In this document: piece by piece, positions 42,597 to 48,973 of the stretch
Position numbering within the stretch: position 1 is the first letter of the stretch
How the letters are laid out: the number at the start of each line of letters is the position of its first letter
Source: Halosimplex salinum
GTDB taxonomy: Archaea; Halobacteriota; Halobacteria; Halobacteriales; Haloarculaceae
Reading direction: 5' to 3'
Assembly: GCF_003730195.1 (NCBI RefSeq)
Contig: NZ_QWGG01000003.1
Span: 62,001 to 126,000 of the forward strand
DNA: 64,000 bases
The notes under the pieces: model-generated
Database searches by the model: none
Seen by the model: the letters and a program-made list of their open reading frames with translations, nothing else
Told to the model about the DNA's origin: nothing
Position numbers and translations under genes: made by a program

Positions 42597-42740
42597 AGGT
42601 GCAAGACGGTCCTGCTCGTTCGCTTCGCTCACTGCGCGAGCATGCGACTTGCGGGCGCGAGTCCCGGCTGTCGCGCGTTCGTCGTTCGCGATGGTGAGCA
42701 CACGCTACGCGGTGCTCACCGAGTTACTCACGACAGAAGA

Positions 42741-42813
42741 CGCCACCGCCAGGACTCGAACCTGGGACAACCTCGTTAACAGCGAGGTGCTCTACCAACT
42801 GAGCTACGGCGGC
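42741..42813 (-). tRNA. tRNA-Asn (GTT)
   Basis: A 73-nt gene read on the minus strand, starting GCCGCCGTAGCTCAG. The acceptor pairs GCCGCCG with CGGTGGC (one G-U). The anticodon stem CCTCG/CGAGG encloses CTGTTAA, anticodon GTT. The T-arm is CCAGGTTCGAGTCCTGG. Discriminator G. CCA is not encoded, and the CCA-adding enzyme gene is the divergent neighbour. No intron is seen. Confidence 0.96.
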
Positions 42814-42958
42814 ACGCATGCAGTCATAGCCGGAGTTGTTGTATAGGGATTTCGCTTTGGACCCGTCGCGTCACGGAGTCACGTACGTCGACAGAACGAC
42901 AGTTCCACACCCACAGTACATCAGACAGGTTTTCACGGGGCCCGTCCAACCCCGAGCC

Positions 42959-44377
42959 ATGAGCGACGAGTTCGACGCGGTCGTCGAGCGGGTCCGCGAG
43001 CGGGTCGAACCCGACGCGGCCGAGCGCGAGCGACTCGACGCGGTCGCCGACGACCTCCGCGAGCGCGCACGCGCTGCCATCGCCGACCTCCCGGTCGACG
43101 CCGACGTGATCCAGGTGGGCTCGACAGCGCGCGACACGTGGCTGGCGGGCGACCGCGACGTCGACCTCTTCGTCGCCTTCCCGCCGGATCTCGACCGCGA
43201 ACGCCTCGAATCCTACGGCCTCGACGTCGGTCACGCGGTCCTGCCGGAGGGCCACGAGGAGTACGCCGAGCATCCGTACGTGAAAGGAGTCTACGACGAC
43301 TTCGACGTGGATCTGGTCCCCTGCTACGCGGTCGAGGACGCCACGGAGATCCAGTCGGCCGTCGACCGCACGCCCTTCCACACCGAGTACCTCACCGAGC
43401 GCATCGACGCCGACCTCGCCGGGGAGGTCCGGGTCGCCAAGCAGTTCCTCACCGGTATCGGCGTCTACGGCAGCGACCTGCGCACTCGCGGGTTCTCGGG
43501 CTATCTCACCGAACTGCTCGTCCACGAGTACGGCGACTTCCGGGCGTTCGTCGAGGGCGCCGCCGACTGGCACCCGCCGGTGACATTCGACCCCGAAGAC
43601 CACGCGGAAGAGCGCGAGACGGCTTCGCCGTCTCGGAACGACGAGGTCGGCGGAGCCGACCTCGCTTTCGACGACCCGCTCGTGGTCGTCGACCCGACGG
43701 ACCCCGAACGCAACGTCGCCGCGGTCTGTACCGCCGAGAGCGTCGCGCGCCTCCAGCACTACGCGCGCGACCTGCTGGCCGACCCGCGCGAGAGTCTCTT
43801 CTTCGCGGCGCTGCCGGAGGCCGTCGACGCCGAGACCGTCCGGGAGACCTTCGAGCGACGGGGGACCACGCCGGTGGCGCTCCGGTTCGCCGCGCCCGAC
43901 ATCGTCGAGGACCAGCTCTACCCGCAACTCGACCGGTCGCTTGCGGGGATCGTCGGCGAACTCGACAGGCGAGGGTTCGACGTGCTCCGGGCGGCGGCGT
44001 GGGCCGACGAGACGGTCGCGCTGCTGGCCGAACTCGAAGTCGCGGAGCGACCGACCGTCGAGCGGCACGAGGGGCCACCGGTCCACGTCAGGGGCCACTC
44101 CGAAGGGTTCTACGAGGCGTACGCGGACGACGACCCGGAGAGCGACGGGACGTACGGACCGTTCCTCGACGGCGACCGCTACGTCGTCGAGCGCCCGCGA
44201 GCGTTCGAGACGGCGGTGGGGCTGCTGGAGAGCGACGCGCTCTTCGACGTGGCGCTGGGGGCGCAGATCGAAGCGGCGCTGGAGGGGGACTACGAGGTGC
44301 TCGCCGGCGAGGCGGTGAGCGAGCTGGCCGAGGAGTTCGGTGTCGAGCTCGCGCGGTATCTGGCGCCGCGGCCGTGA
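42959..44377 (+). CDS. cca: CCA tRNA nucleotidyltransferase (archaeal class I)
   Basis: Adds and repairs the 3' CCA of tRNA with CTP and ATP. The 472 residues start with an archaeal class I nucleotidyltransferase domain: GSTARDTWLAGDRDVDLFV (Asp67, Asp69) and DFDVDLVPC as the third carboxylate. RVAKQFLTGIGVYGSDLRTRGFSGYL is the next family block. Residues about 217-236 (REREtasps... region) are encoded by two adjacent perfect palindromes, an apparent in-frame insertion. The internal ATG at MSDEFDAVV is chosen; the frame upstream overlaps the tRNA promoter zone. Confidence 0.95.
   Translation: MSDEFDAVVERVRERVEPDAAERERLDAVADDLRERARAAIADLPVDADVIQVGSTARDTWLAGDRDVDLFVAFPPDLDRERLESYGLDVGHAVLPEGHEEYAEHPYVKGVYDDFDVDLVPCYAVEDATEIQSAVDRTPFHTEYLTERIDADLAGEVRVAKQFLTGIGVYGSDLRTRGFSGYLTELLVHEYGDFRAFVEGAADWHPPVTFDPEDHAEERETASPSRNDEVGGADLAFDDPLVVVDPTDPERNVAAVCTAESVARLQHYARDLLADPRESLFFAALPEAVDAETVRETFERRGTTPVALRFAAPDIVEDQLYPQLDRSLAGIVGELDRRGFDVLRAAAWADETVALLAELEVAERPTVERHEGPPVHVRGHSEGFYEAYADDDPESDGTYGPFLDGDRYVVERPRAFETAVGLLESDALFDVALGAQIEAALEGDYEVLAGEAVSELAEEFGVELARYLAPRP
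43615..43664 (+). repeat. Two in-frame palindromes inside cca
   Basis: The first palindrome is CGAGACGGC-TTC-GCCGTCTCG (43615-43635, 9-bp arms). The second is CGAGGTCGGC-GGA-GCCGACCTCG (43642-43664 approximately, 10-bp arms). Six bases separate them. They encode about 17 residues that sit between DPEDHAEE and FDDPLVVVDP without breaking the frame. They look like the short palindromes of the intergenic repeat clusters. Confidence 0.85.
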
Positions 44378-44411: not shown

Positions 44412-44666
44412 TCACTCGGTGTCGACGGCGTAGAGTCGCTGGCGGGCGTCCGCCGGGTAGATCCGCTCTTCGACGAGACCGGTGTCCGTCAGGTCGCTCA
44501 GCGCGCTGCGGACGCTGCGCTGAGAGAGGCGGGTCTCCTCGGCGAGCGTCTTCTGGGTCAATGGGCCTTCGTACTCGAGGACCGTGTACACGAACTTCGC
44601 GCTCGGTGTCAGATCGTCGAGTTGCGATTCCCAGTCACGATACGATTGTTCCGTACAGCAACACAC
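44412..44666 (-). CDS. Small winged-helix protein (MarR/TrmB-like)
   Basis: An 84-residue DNA-binding protein that is a single winged helix: SAKFVYTVLEYEGPLTQKTL, AEETRLSQRSVRSALSDL (recognition helix) and a wing ending EERIYPADARQRLYAV. It starts at a GTG, giving an N-terminus with three cysteines in a row (MCCCTEQ), which is unusual and might be redox-active or an artefact of the start choice. It lies downstream of and convergent with cca. About 205 bp of AT-richer DNA without a gene lies upstream. Confidence 0.78.
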   Translation of the reverse strand: MCCCTEQSYRDWESQLDDLTPSAKFVYTVLEYEGPLTQKTLAEETRLSQRSVRSALSDLTDTGLVEERIYPADARQRLYAVDTE

Positions 44667-44871: not shown

Positions 44872-45888
44872 TCAGTTCTCGGCGAGGTCGAAGCCCTGCG
44901 ACCGGACGTCGTCGATGACCTGCCGAGCGGCGTCCTGGACGTCCTCGTCGGGTTCCTGGGGGTGATAGCCGTCGAACACCTCGTGGACGGTTCGGATGCT
45001 CTGTGTCAGCGTGTCCAGTCCGTAGCCGCCCTCGAGGACGAACCCGAGTCCGGCGTCGATGCGGTCGGCGAACGCGTCGAAGCGGTCGGCGAGACAGCCG
45101 TACCCCTCCGTCGAGACGCGCATCCGCGAGATGGGGTCGTGTTCGTGCGCGTCGAAGCCCGCGGAGACCAGGACGAGGTCGGGATCGAACGCCTCGAACG
45201 CGGGGACGATCAGGTCGTCGACCGCGGCGAGGTAGCCGCTCGTCCGCGTGCCCGGCGGGAAGGGGACGTTCATCGTCGTTCCCTCGCCCGCGCCAGACCC
45301 GGTCTCGGTCGCGTCGCCTGTCCCGGGGTAGATGCCGTCCTCGTGGATGGAGACGAAGAACACGTCGTCGCGGTCCTCGAAGATGTCCTGCGTGCCGTTG
45401 CCGTGGTGGACGTCCCAGTCGACGATCGCGACTCGCTCGGCCCCGAGGTCGTCGAGCGCGTGCTGGGCCGCGACGGCGACGTGGTCGAAGAAACAGAAGC
45501 CCATGGCGTCGTCGTACACCGCGTGGTGGCCCGGGGGGCGACACAGCGCGAACGGCGTGTCCCGGCCGTCCGCGCCGCTCAGCGCTTCGTCGGCGGCCCA
45601 GTTCGCCATGCCCGAACTGGCGAGCGCGGCGTCCCAGGTGGCTTCGACGGCGACGGTGTCGGCGTCCCAGTCGCCGCCGCCGTCGGCACAGAACTCCTTG
45701 ACCGACTGGACGTAGTCGGCGTCGTGGACGGCGCTGACCTGTTCCTCCGTGGCGTCGTCGGGCGAGACGTACCTGACGCCGTGACAGTCCGAGAGCCCCT
45801 GCCGGATGGCGCGCAGGCGGTCGGGGCTCTCGGGGTGGCGCTTGCCGGTGTCGTGGTCGAGACAGACTTCCCGGTAGCCGAAGTTCAT
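44872..45888 (-). CDS. Histone-deacetylase family protein
   Basis: A 338-residue zinc-dependent arginase/deacetylase-fold enzyme. The active-site marks are RPPGHHAVYDDAMGFCFFDH, the metal ligands in VDWDVHHGNGTQDIFE, SIHEDGIYPGTGD, and SAGFDAHEHDPI, with the terminal GGYG in VLEGGYGLDTL. Archaeal members may deacetylate proteins, acetylpolyamines or other amides; the substrate is not known from sequence. It starts six bases after the histone gene stop, so the two are almost certainly one operon. Confidence 0.94.
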   Translation of the reverse strand: MNFGYREVCLDHDTGKRHPESPDRLRAIRQGLSDCHGVRYVSPDDATEEQVSAVHDADYVQSVKEFCADGGGDWDADTVAVEATWDAALASSGMANWAADEALSGADGRDTPFALCRPPGHHAVYDDAMGFCFFDHVAVAAQHALDDLGAERVAIVDWDVHHGNGTQDIFEDRDDVFFVSIHEDGIYPGTGDATETGSGAGEGTTMNVPFPPGTRTSGYLAAVDDLIVPAFEAFDPDLVLVSAGFDAHEHDPISRMRVSTEGYGCLADRFDAFADRIDAGLGFVLEGGYGLDTLTQSIRTVHEVFDGYHPQEPDEDVQDAARQVIDDVRSQGFDLAEN

Positions 45889-45894
45889 GCGGGG

Positions 45895-46332
45895 TTACTC
45901 GAAGTACTGTTTGAGTCGAAAGTAGGCCTCGACGTCCTCCGCTTTCACCGTCCGCCGGTCGGCGTGGCGCGCGAGGTCGGCGGCGGCCGCGGCCACGCGG
46001 TCGGCGTACGTCTCCAGCAGCGACGCCAGCGCGATGCGGGCCTCCATGGAGACGCGGTAGTCGTCGATGTCGAGGCGAGCGATGCGGTCCACGGGCGCGA
46101 TCGGCAGTTCGAGGTCGTCCTTGTCCCCGGAGGCGTCGACGCCGAAGTCGGCGGCCATCAGCGTCTTCCGGCCGTCCGCGGTCGCCACGTCGGCGGCCTC
46201 GACCGCCAGCTCGGCCCCGCGCTCCTGGATGCGACGGGCGAGTTCCTCGGCGGCCTCGGCGCTGACCCGCAGACTCCCGGCGTTGCGCCGGATTATCGTG
46301 TCGACCGGCGCGAACGGTAGCTCGACGCTCAT
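45895..46332 (-). CDS. Archaeal doublet histone
   Basis: A 145-residue protein made of two fused histone folds, typical of haloarchaea. Fold one starts MSVELPFAPVDTIIRRN and includes RVSAEAAEELARRIQERG. Fold two starts LELPIAPVDRIARLD and includes RVSMEARIALASLLETYAD and DRRTVKAEDVEAYF. Each carries the alpha1-loop-alpha2-loop-alpha3 pattern. It is far more acidic than other archaeal histones, which fits high-salt cytoplasm, and whether it wraps DNA strongly is debated. The third-codon ATG is chosen. A CCTTAAGC box lies 24-31 bases upstream. Confidence 0.95.
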   Translation of the reverse strand: MSVELPFAPVDTIIRRNAGSLRVSAEAAEELARRIQERGAELAVEAADVATADGRKTLMAADFGVDASGDKDDLELPIAPVDRIARLDIDDYRVSMEARIALASLLETYADRVAAAAADLARHADRRTVKAEDVEAYFRLKQYFE

Positions 46333-46355
46333 ACACCACAAGCGGTCTGTTCCGG

Positions 46356-46363
46356 CCTTAAGC
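46356..46363 (-). promoter_or_regulatory. TATA-like box of the histone-HDAC operon
   Basis: GCTTAAGG on the minus strand stands 24-31 bases before the histone ATG. The same CTTAAG core appears at the matching distance before the RPA gene (47976-47981). Confidence 0.5.
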
Positions 46364-46472
46364 GTTTCCGAAAACCGCTATCGGACACGCAGAGTGACTG
46401 ACACGCTCGCTCGCCGGTCAGTCCCGTGATCGGTCGCACGTCGAAAAGCGGCCGTTCAAGCGGCAAGCGCCG

Positions 46473-47945
46473 TCAGAACACGTCGTCCGCGTCGAGTCGG
46501 TCGTCGCGAACCGGTCCGCGCGCGGTCACTTCCTGCCCAAGCGTCAGCGCCGCGTCCGTGTCCACCTGCATCGTCTCCTGTCCGTCGTCCAGGATGACCG
46601 GGTCGCCCGTCTGGACGACCGTGCCCGTGAACTCGACCTCCTCCGTCGCCGCGGCCGCCGCACCGCCCGACCCGCTCGCGCCGCCGGCATCTGCCGCCCC
46701 GCCGTCCGAGTCGCTCGCGTCGGCCCCGTCCCCGTCACCGGTGAACGCGCCGAGCCCGGTGTCCGACCCGCCGCTGGAGTCGCTGTCGCCGGACCCGCCG
46801 CTCCCGCCGGGCGCGGGCGCGGCCGTGCCGGCGCCCGTGTTCTCGTCGAGGACGACGACCGTCGACTGCCAGCCAGCCGACGCTTCGAGGTCGTCCTGCC
46901 AGCCGTCCTGGATCTCTGCGTCGGCGACGAACACCTCGTCGCCGGGCGCGATCTCCTTGTCGGCCTTCTCGCCCCACAGCGCGACGCGGATGTCGCCGGT
47001 GTCGTCCTGCACGCGGATGTTTCGGACCTGTCCCTCCGAGCCGTCGTCGCGGTCGAACGTCCGCTTCGGGTCGGCCGAGCGCACGACGCCCGCCAGATCG
47101 ACGACCTGGTCCATCTCGACGGCGTCGATGGCGTCGGCCTCGGGGACGAACTCGACGGACTCGTCGATCTCGTCGATGGCGCCCTGGTCGCCGACGTGGA
47201 GTTCGAGGTCGCCCTCCCGCTCGCGGACGTACCCGTCGACGACCTCGACCGCCGTGCCCGGTTCGAGTTCCGTGGCGCGGTCCGCGCGGTCGTCCCACAT
47301 CGTCACGCGCACGCGCCCCGTCTCGTCGCCCAGCAGGAAGTTCGAGACCTTCCCCTCCGTGCCGTCGTCGCGGTCGAACGTCCGAACCGGCTCGGTCTCG
47401 AGGACGAGGCCGGTCACGTTCACGTCGGACTGGCCCATCGTCAGCGCGTCGACGGTCGACCCCTCGCCGAGTTGCACGTCGATCTCCGCGTCGTCGTCGG
47501 GTTCGGCCTTGTCGACGGAGACTTCGAGGCCGTTGTACCCGTCCTTGGGCCGGCCGGCGATGCGGAGGACCTGTCCCTCCTCCAGCATCCCGTCGGTGAT
47601 CGCCTCGGCCTGCTGGTCCCAGAACGCGAGGCGGACGGTGCCGGTCTCGTCGGCGGCCTCGACGTTGACGACGCGGCCGTCCTCGTCCTCGCCGTCGCGC
47701 TCGAAGGTCCGCAACTCGCCGATAGAGACCACCTTCGCGAGGAACTTCACCTCCTCCATGCCGGGTTCGATGTCCGCGACCGTGTCGACCTCCCCTTCGT
47801 TGAGTTCGTGCGCGATGAGCATCGCCGCCGTCTCCTCGTCCGCGAGCCCGCCCATCTGCTCGACCTTCTGCTCGACGGCCTCGCGGAACTCCTCCTCGGA
47901 GACGTCCGTCTCCAGATCCGCGTAGATCTCCTCGATCTCTCCCAT
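46473..47945 (-). CDS. RPA-type single-stranded DNA-binding protein
   Basis: A 490-residue replication protein A homologue that coats single-stranded DNA in replication and repair. After a helical N-terminus (MGEIEEIYADLETDV) come at least three OB folds, each with the pattern VRTFDRDDGTEGKVSNFLLGD ending RVTMWDD or similar (FWDQQA, MWDDRA, LWGEKA). A Gly/Ser/Ala/Asp-rich linker of about 70 residues then separates a final short OB-like element. No zinc finger is seen. The ATG at MGEIEE is chosen, supported by the CTTAAG box 31-36 bases upstream. Confidence 0.93.
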   Translation of the reverse strand: MGEIEEIYADLETDVSEEEFREAVEQKVEQMGGLADEETAAMLIAHELNEGEVDTVADIEPGMEEVKFLAKVVSIGELRTFERDGEDEDGRVVNVEAADETGTVRLAFWDQQAEAITDGMLEEGQVLRIAGRPKDGYNGLEVSVDKAEPDDDAEIDVQLGEGSTVDALTMGQSDVNVTGLVLETEPVRTFDRDDGTEGKVSNFLLGDETGRVRVTMWDDRADRATELEPGTAVEVVDGYVREREGDLELHVGDQGAIDEIDESVEFVPEADAIDAVEMDQVVDLAGVVRSADPKRTFDRDDGSEGQVRNIRVQDDTGDIRVALWGEKADKEIAPGDEVFVADAEIQDGWQDDLEASAGWQSTVVVLDENTGAGTAAPAPGGSGGSGDSDSSGGSDTGLGAFTGDGDGADASDSDGGAADAGGASGSGGAAAAATEEVEFTGTVVQTGDPVILDDGQETMQVDTDAALTLGQEVTARGPVRDDRLDADDVF

Positions 47946-48900: not shown

Positions 48901-48973
48901 GTCCGGATAGGGTAGTGGACTATCCTCTTGGCTTGCGGAGCCAGGGACCGGAGTTCGAATCTCCGTCCGGACG
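48901..48973 (+). tRNA. tRNA-Arg (GCG)
   Basis: A 73-nt gene starting GTCCGGATAGGGTAGTGG. Acceptor GTCCGGA pairs with TCCGGAC. The anticodon stem TTGGC/GCCAG encloses TTGCGGA, anticodon GCG, reading CGC and CGU codons. The T-arm is CCGGAGTTCGAATCTCCGT-like. Discriminator G; CCA is not encoded. A long hairpin begins five bases past its end. Confidence 0.95.

Follow-up and report, generated by a model that had tools for sequence, protein, structure and literature searches.

In haloarchaea, the gene of a doublet histone and that of the zinc-dependent deacetylase (HDAC) lying behind it are adjacent in 190 of 194 genomes and are held together more strictly than the surrounding genes. We consider, with a probability of roughly 60 %, that the two form an ordinary, strongly conserved co-expression operon whose second gene, hdaI, encodes a general protein-lysine deacetylase. 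The hstA–hdaI operon is already known, and its finding in Halosimplex salinum is a rediscovery in another species. What is added here is the class-wide extent of the pairing, the comparison of the link with its flanks, a promoter ahead of the histone gene only, the invariance of one histone lysine (K56) and the natural losses of hdaI in genomes that each have another HDAC. Enzymatic acetyl control of an archaeal histone would bear on the origin of eukaryotic chromatin regulation, and the histone–HDAC operon was the original reason for proposing such control in haloarchaea.

Organisation of the locus in H. salinum

The window, i.e. the whole stretch of 64,000 nucleotides that was analysed, carries on its minus strand the gene of a 145-aa doublet histone of the hstA type (46332..45895). 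The protein matches NF043032 as well as PF00808 (1.5e-27), the latter in two stretches that correspond to two histone folds. The next gene on the same strand (45888..44872) encodes a 338-aa zinc-dependent deacetylase of the hdaI type (PF00850, 5.6e-85), and the ORF coordinates leave a 6-nt spacer between the two (45894..45889, minus strand). This is the arrangement by which an hstA–hdaI pair is recognised, i.e. a doublet histone directly followed by a same-strand PF00850 gene. A sequence-only reading of the window had described a doublet histone gene with a zinc deacetylase-fold gene six bases further on, and its coordinates, strand and domains were confirmed. A profile search of the H. salinum genome returned one PF00850 gene only.

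The upstream neighbour of the histone gene encodes an RPA-type single-stranded DNA-binding protein (PRK07211; 46473..47963, minus strand, likely start at 47945). Downstream of the HDAC gene come a small winged-helix gene (44412..44666, minus strand), recognised as an ORF and by domain search, and beyond it the convergent gene of a CCA-adding enzyme (42836..44377, plus strand). No counterpart of the winged-helix gene was found by similarity in 80 related loci. The region is flanked by genes for tRNA-Asn (42739-42814, minus strand) and tRNA-Arg (48901-48973, plus strand). A third histone-fold match, a 69-aa frame scoring 30.4 bits in genome G000 (C7:5991-6140, L109), is possibly the acidic 'miniature' histone of halophiles (compare passages of PMC13260811).

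Alignment of 90 histone upstream regions at the ATG revealed a conserved AAA at -35..-33 and a conserved TTAA at -29..-26, located between the RPA gene and the histone gene. The window matches this consensus, with a BRE-like AAA at 46365..46367 and a TATA-like TTAA at 46358..46361 (both on the minus strand), and the spacing of the two elements is, judging from the aligned regions, that expected for a leaderless transcript. Nothing comparable to BRE/TATA appeared ahead of hdaI in the base-composition (A+T) profile of the upstream regions. The conservation of BRE/TATA ahead of the histone gene alone may reflect a single transcript in H. salinum. Another conserved stretch abuts the histone ATG (46333-46345 in the window; T at -1 in 83, G at -4 in 76 and C at -13 in 83 of the 90 regions) and may serve either as an initiator, the gene being leaderless, or as a site for a regulator.

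Conservation of the pair among haloarchaea

The class sample comprised 194 haloarchaeal genomes, in which histone and HDAC matches were resolved by coordinates and considered adjacent when separated by less than 400 nt. PF00808 and PF00850 were each found in 194/194 genomes. The count of adjacent pairs (190/194) was assembled from 111 genomes with both matches listed (108 adjacent) and completed with 80 further genomes (79 adjacent), the genome of H. salinum itself, and G073 and G124, whose spacing was verified. Wider gaps were still scored as adjacent, i.e. 158 nt in G172, and 144 and 271 nt in the named loci L005 and L080, respectively. Among the four genomes without adjacency, G131 keeps the gene order with 605 nt in between, and hdaI is absent from the other three (G001, G007 and G021). 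A second set consisted of the best 80 loci from one contig scan with the histone as query, picked by histone similarity and not by the pair; the HDAC gene came next on the same strand in all 80.

Retention of neighbouring links was compared under a 600-nt rule, the denominators being the loci with enough flank among these 80 and the window. The histone–HDAC link was retained in 79/79 loci, versus 63/77 for RPA–histone and 36/71 for HDAC–CCA, and is thus stricter than the surrounding gene order. In 88 loci, own genome counted once, the spacing from histone to HDAC was -4 nt in 28, -1 in 14, 0 in 27, 1 to 7 in 11 and larger in 8, i.e. no more than 7 nt in 80 loci, with overlapping genes in 42, although individual values may be off since the start codon used was the one nearest the similarity match. 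The histone-adjacent HDACs make up one clade (SH-aLRT 97, 29/29 sampled rows), which includes the HDAC of the window and that of G131 with its 605-nt gap. At least two further haloarchaeal HDAC clades lie away from the histone (L083, L084, L085 and L089; L093, L097 and L098).

The pairing is not chance. The sequence-only reading had suggested surveying the spread of the pair across haloarchaea and held that a pair unique to this genome would speak against it; the pair is adjacent in nearly the whole class. Its proposal of an operon and a functional link is further sustained by the one shared promoter and by the cotranscription described for H. volcanii in passages of PMC2946573.

The histone as a candidate substrate

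One alternative is that HdaI mainly deacetylates the histone, most likely at K56 in the L2 loop that contacts DNA, and is thereby an archaeal counterpart of histone deacetylation in eukaryotes. The pairing in 190 genomes counts in favour of this reading, which we consider rather unlikely. Support also comes from the lysines themselves, which are rare in an alignment of 91 haloarchaeal histones (the window, the 80 named loci and 10 from further genomes). K56 (codon at 46165..46167, minus strand), within the RKT motif in the L2 loop of fold 1, is the sole invariant lysine (91/91) and the only lysine of the histone in 29 of the 91; elsewhere, position 130 holds K in 45, Q in 41 and T in 5 sequences, and position 71 K in 38 and R in 42. 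Any class-wide histone acetylation would therefore need K56. The fold 2 counterpart of K56 is an arginine in the alignment rows displayed, so that arginine seems tolerated in that loop, which also counts in favour of this reading. R55, K56 and T57 are present in 91/91 sequences, as is T128; the protein thus has both marks of an archaeal doublet histone, two folds in one chain and the RKT/RxT motifs of the L2 loops. On the other side, passages of PMC13260811 describe the RKT motif as near-universal in archaeal histones and involved in DNA binding, and the conservation of K56 thus needs no acetylation.

The three genomes lacking hdaI offer a natural comparison. The order is RPA–histone–CCA in G007 (L082) and G001 (L094), and other sequence follows the histone gene in G021 (L086); a tblastn search with eight HdaI queries detected no hdaI remnant behind these three histone genes better than E 0.08. 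K56 is retained in all three, which argues against HdaI acting mainly on this residue. Each of the three genomes has a distant HDAC, about 38 % identical to that of the window, and these form a separate clade that also contains an HDAC of G093, where a normal hdaI is present as well. Since none of the 194 genomes lacks PF00850 and the three without hdaI each have another HDAC, we infer that haloarchaea always retain a zinc deacetylase of some kind, which need not be the histone-linked one. Relative to the histone-versus-RPA trend (77 loci), the histones of G001 and G007 are low by 5.9 and 5.4 sd, respectively, and that of G021, for which no full RPA was available for comparison, shows 60.6 % identity. 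This divergence where hdaI was lost favours the histone as main substrate and hints, in two lineages only, that the histone feels the loss; part of it belongs to the lineage, because the histone of G093 is likewise low (-2.8 sd) despite the presence of hdaI. A joint loss of Sir2 and hdaI was also considered and rejected: Sir2 is missing from G001, G007 and G021 and present in 5/5 comparison genomes, but its absence from three genomes of two lineages means little, as it was found in only 109 of the 194 genomes of the class (108 over the cut-off).

Genetic data also count against the histone as main substrate. In H. volcanii, hdaI is reported to be essential (review by Soppa 2010, PMC2946573; repeated in passages of two later papers), whereas passages of PMC10128011 describe the histone of this species as deletable, HpyA of Halobacterium salinarum as non-essential and regulator-like, and the histone as expressed at transcription-factor-like levels. 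It follows that the histone is not simply the essential substrate of HdaI and that a strain without HdaI does not die merely from lost histone function. The cause would be some other substrate or a toxic effect of hyperacetylated histone, and explanations centred on the histone have to account for this mismatch. In addition, the main-text passages of the H. volcanii acetylome paper name no acetylated histone.

Published support exists as well. The histone was proposed as HdaI substrate in 2010, proof then being missing (Soppa, PMC2946573), and passages of PMC10516927 report histone acetylation in Thermococcus gammatolerans. The statement of the sequence-only reading that such a chromatin-related role is not established in archaea thus needs correction. 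Its suggestion of reversible histone acetylation is still a hypothesis, weakened by the restriction to one invariant lysine placed in the RKT motif, by the persistence of K56 without hdaI and by the contrast between a deletable histone and a deacetylase reported as essential. If it occurs, histone acetylation in haloarchaea would, as far as the alignment indicates, be reduced mainly to K56. A one-site switch could be imagined, in which Pat-type GNATs or acetyl-CoA acetylate K56, the cotranscribed HdaI erases the mark, DNA binding tracks the acetyl-CoA state, and the loss of hdaI freed the histone to diverge; we regard this scheme as decidedly doubtful.

Gene order outside the class

Alternatively, the two genes may have no common role and stay together because their order was inherited and a strong promoter makes joint expression cheap, which we judge improbable. 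Seventy genomes from other families of the phylum were searched, and both matches were listed for 60. In seven of these 60, belonging to four families, histone and HDAC genes lie 0.8-4.5 kb apart on one strand with the HDAC downstream, and the CCA enzyme gene is convergent behind the HDAC in 7/7. A looser histone/HDAC/CCA neighbourhood therefore exists outside haloarchaea, as this reading would have it; with interposed genes on both strands, it is no operon. The arrangement conserved in the four families (L100-L106) extends behind the CCA enzyme gene to a gene of the same orientation, which from its N-terminus we take to be 2'-5' RNA ligase-like.

Within the class, however, the flanking links were lost much more frequently than the histone–HDAC link. 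Gene order would lead one to expect that HdaI and the HDACs of the outside neighbourhoods descend from a common ancestor. This was examined and rejected, since the tree places the outside HDACs with a far paralogue (A) and their union with HdaI is rejected by the AU test. The p value of 0.0038 against the L100-L104 HDACs as sisters of HdaI is tentative, as row composition differs and some branches are long. A kept position with a different enzyme lineage is not predicted by inertia. For the outside HDACs we claim a shared position, not orthology, with respect to HdaI.

HdaI as a probable protein deacetylase

The active-site set of HdaI is intact in H. salinum, with H121/H122, D159/H161/D246 and Y289, which we take to be the catalytic dyad, the zinc ligands and the catalytic tyrosine, respectively. 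None of these positions shows a substitution in 88 sequences, in which one to three rows are gapped. An AlphaFold2 model (24 sequences, pLDDT 85, low at residues 120-130, which hold the dyad) has HDAH, Kdac1, HDA15 and HDAC6 as nearest folds (Z about 41-43, rmsd about 2 Å, 317-324 aligned residues; Z 42.7 against 1zz0). Both residues and fold are those of a classical zinc HDAC (PF00850), and among solved structures HDAC6 and bacterial lysine deacylase/HDAH match best in sequence. Position 253, presumably the counterpart of the gatekeeper Glu that lies close to the zinc Asp in HDAC10, a polyamine deacetylase, is Ile in all 85 rows with that column filled, so that the gatekeeper of the HDAC10/APAH type is not found among them. 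Ile253 would speak for a lysine in protein as HdaI substrate, without proving it. That HdaI is instead a metabolic deacylase, acting on acetylpolyamine, acetoin (AcuC-like) or another small molecule, is very improbable. PF00850 does include such enzymes, and acetylpolyamine amidohydrolases and dimethoate/propanil hydrolases turned up in the sequence search, but both this Ile and the top matches in sequence and fold, namely HDAC6/HDAH-like protein deacetylases, argue against it.

In the favoured reading, that of a conserved operon with a general deacetylase, a leaderless transcript would begin at the histone ATG and carry the histone and a class II-like zinc lysine deacetylase, the latter coupled to the former by an overlap or a near-zero gap. 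HdaI would most likely act on many proteins of the cell, stripping acetyl (or acyl) groups off their lysines, and its reported essentiality would be due to at least one target other than the histone. The behaviour of the flanks suggests that the linkage is held by selection for co-expression and not by inherited gene order alone. The histone may be among the substrates, in which case K56 would be the only class-wide site. As a counterpoint, the near-absolute pairing with the histone exceeds what a general deacetylase would need. A sharper test is now at hand, built on one invariant residue, on natural genomes without hdaI and on the mismatch between a dispensable histone and a deacetylase reported as essential.

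Comparison with known systems

The closest known system is the H. volcanii pair hstA (HVO_0520)–hdaI (HVO_0522), whose genes overlap and are cotranscribed according to the review by Soppa (2010, PMC2946573). Like the window, it consists of a histone gene followed by that of a class II-type HDAC; apart from the species, the pair in the window differs in that 6 nt separate its genes, which do not overlap, and otherwise nothing notable distinguishes them. The Haloferax loci of our set (L020, L033, L034, L040 and L042) show the same order as the window with near-zero spacing. HpyA of Halobacterium salinarum is the orthologous doublet histone, and the growth effects of its deletion differ between species. 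On the enzyme side, HDAC6 (class IIb), bacterial HDAH and Kdac1 share with HdaI the fold (Z about 41-43) and the catalytic residues, and differ in that HdaI is 29-36 % identical to them, has a single catalytic domain and works in a halophilic cytoplasm. For the Alba–Pat–Sir2 system of Sulfolobus, it has likewise been proposed that lysine acetylation controls an archaeal chromatin protein. Alba, however, is not a histone and Sir2 is NAD-dependent, and among haloarchaea Sir2 occurs in 109 of 194 genomes whereas PF00850 occurs in all 194.
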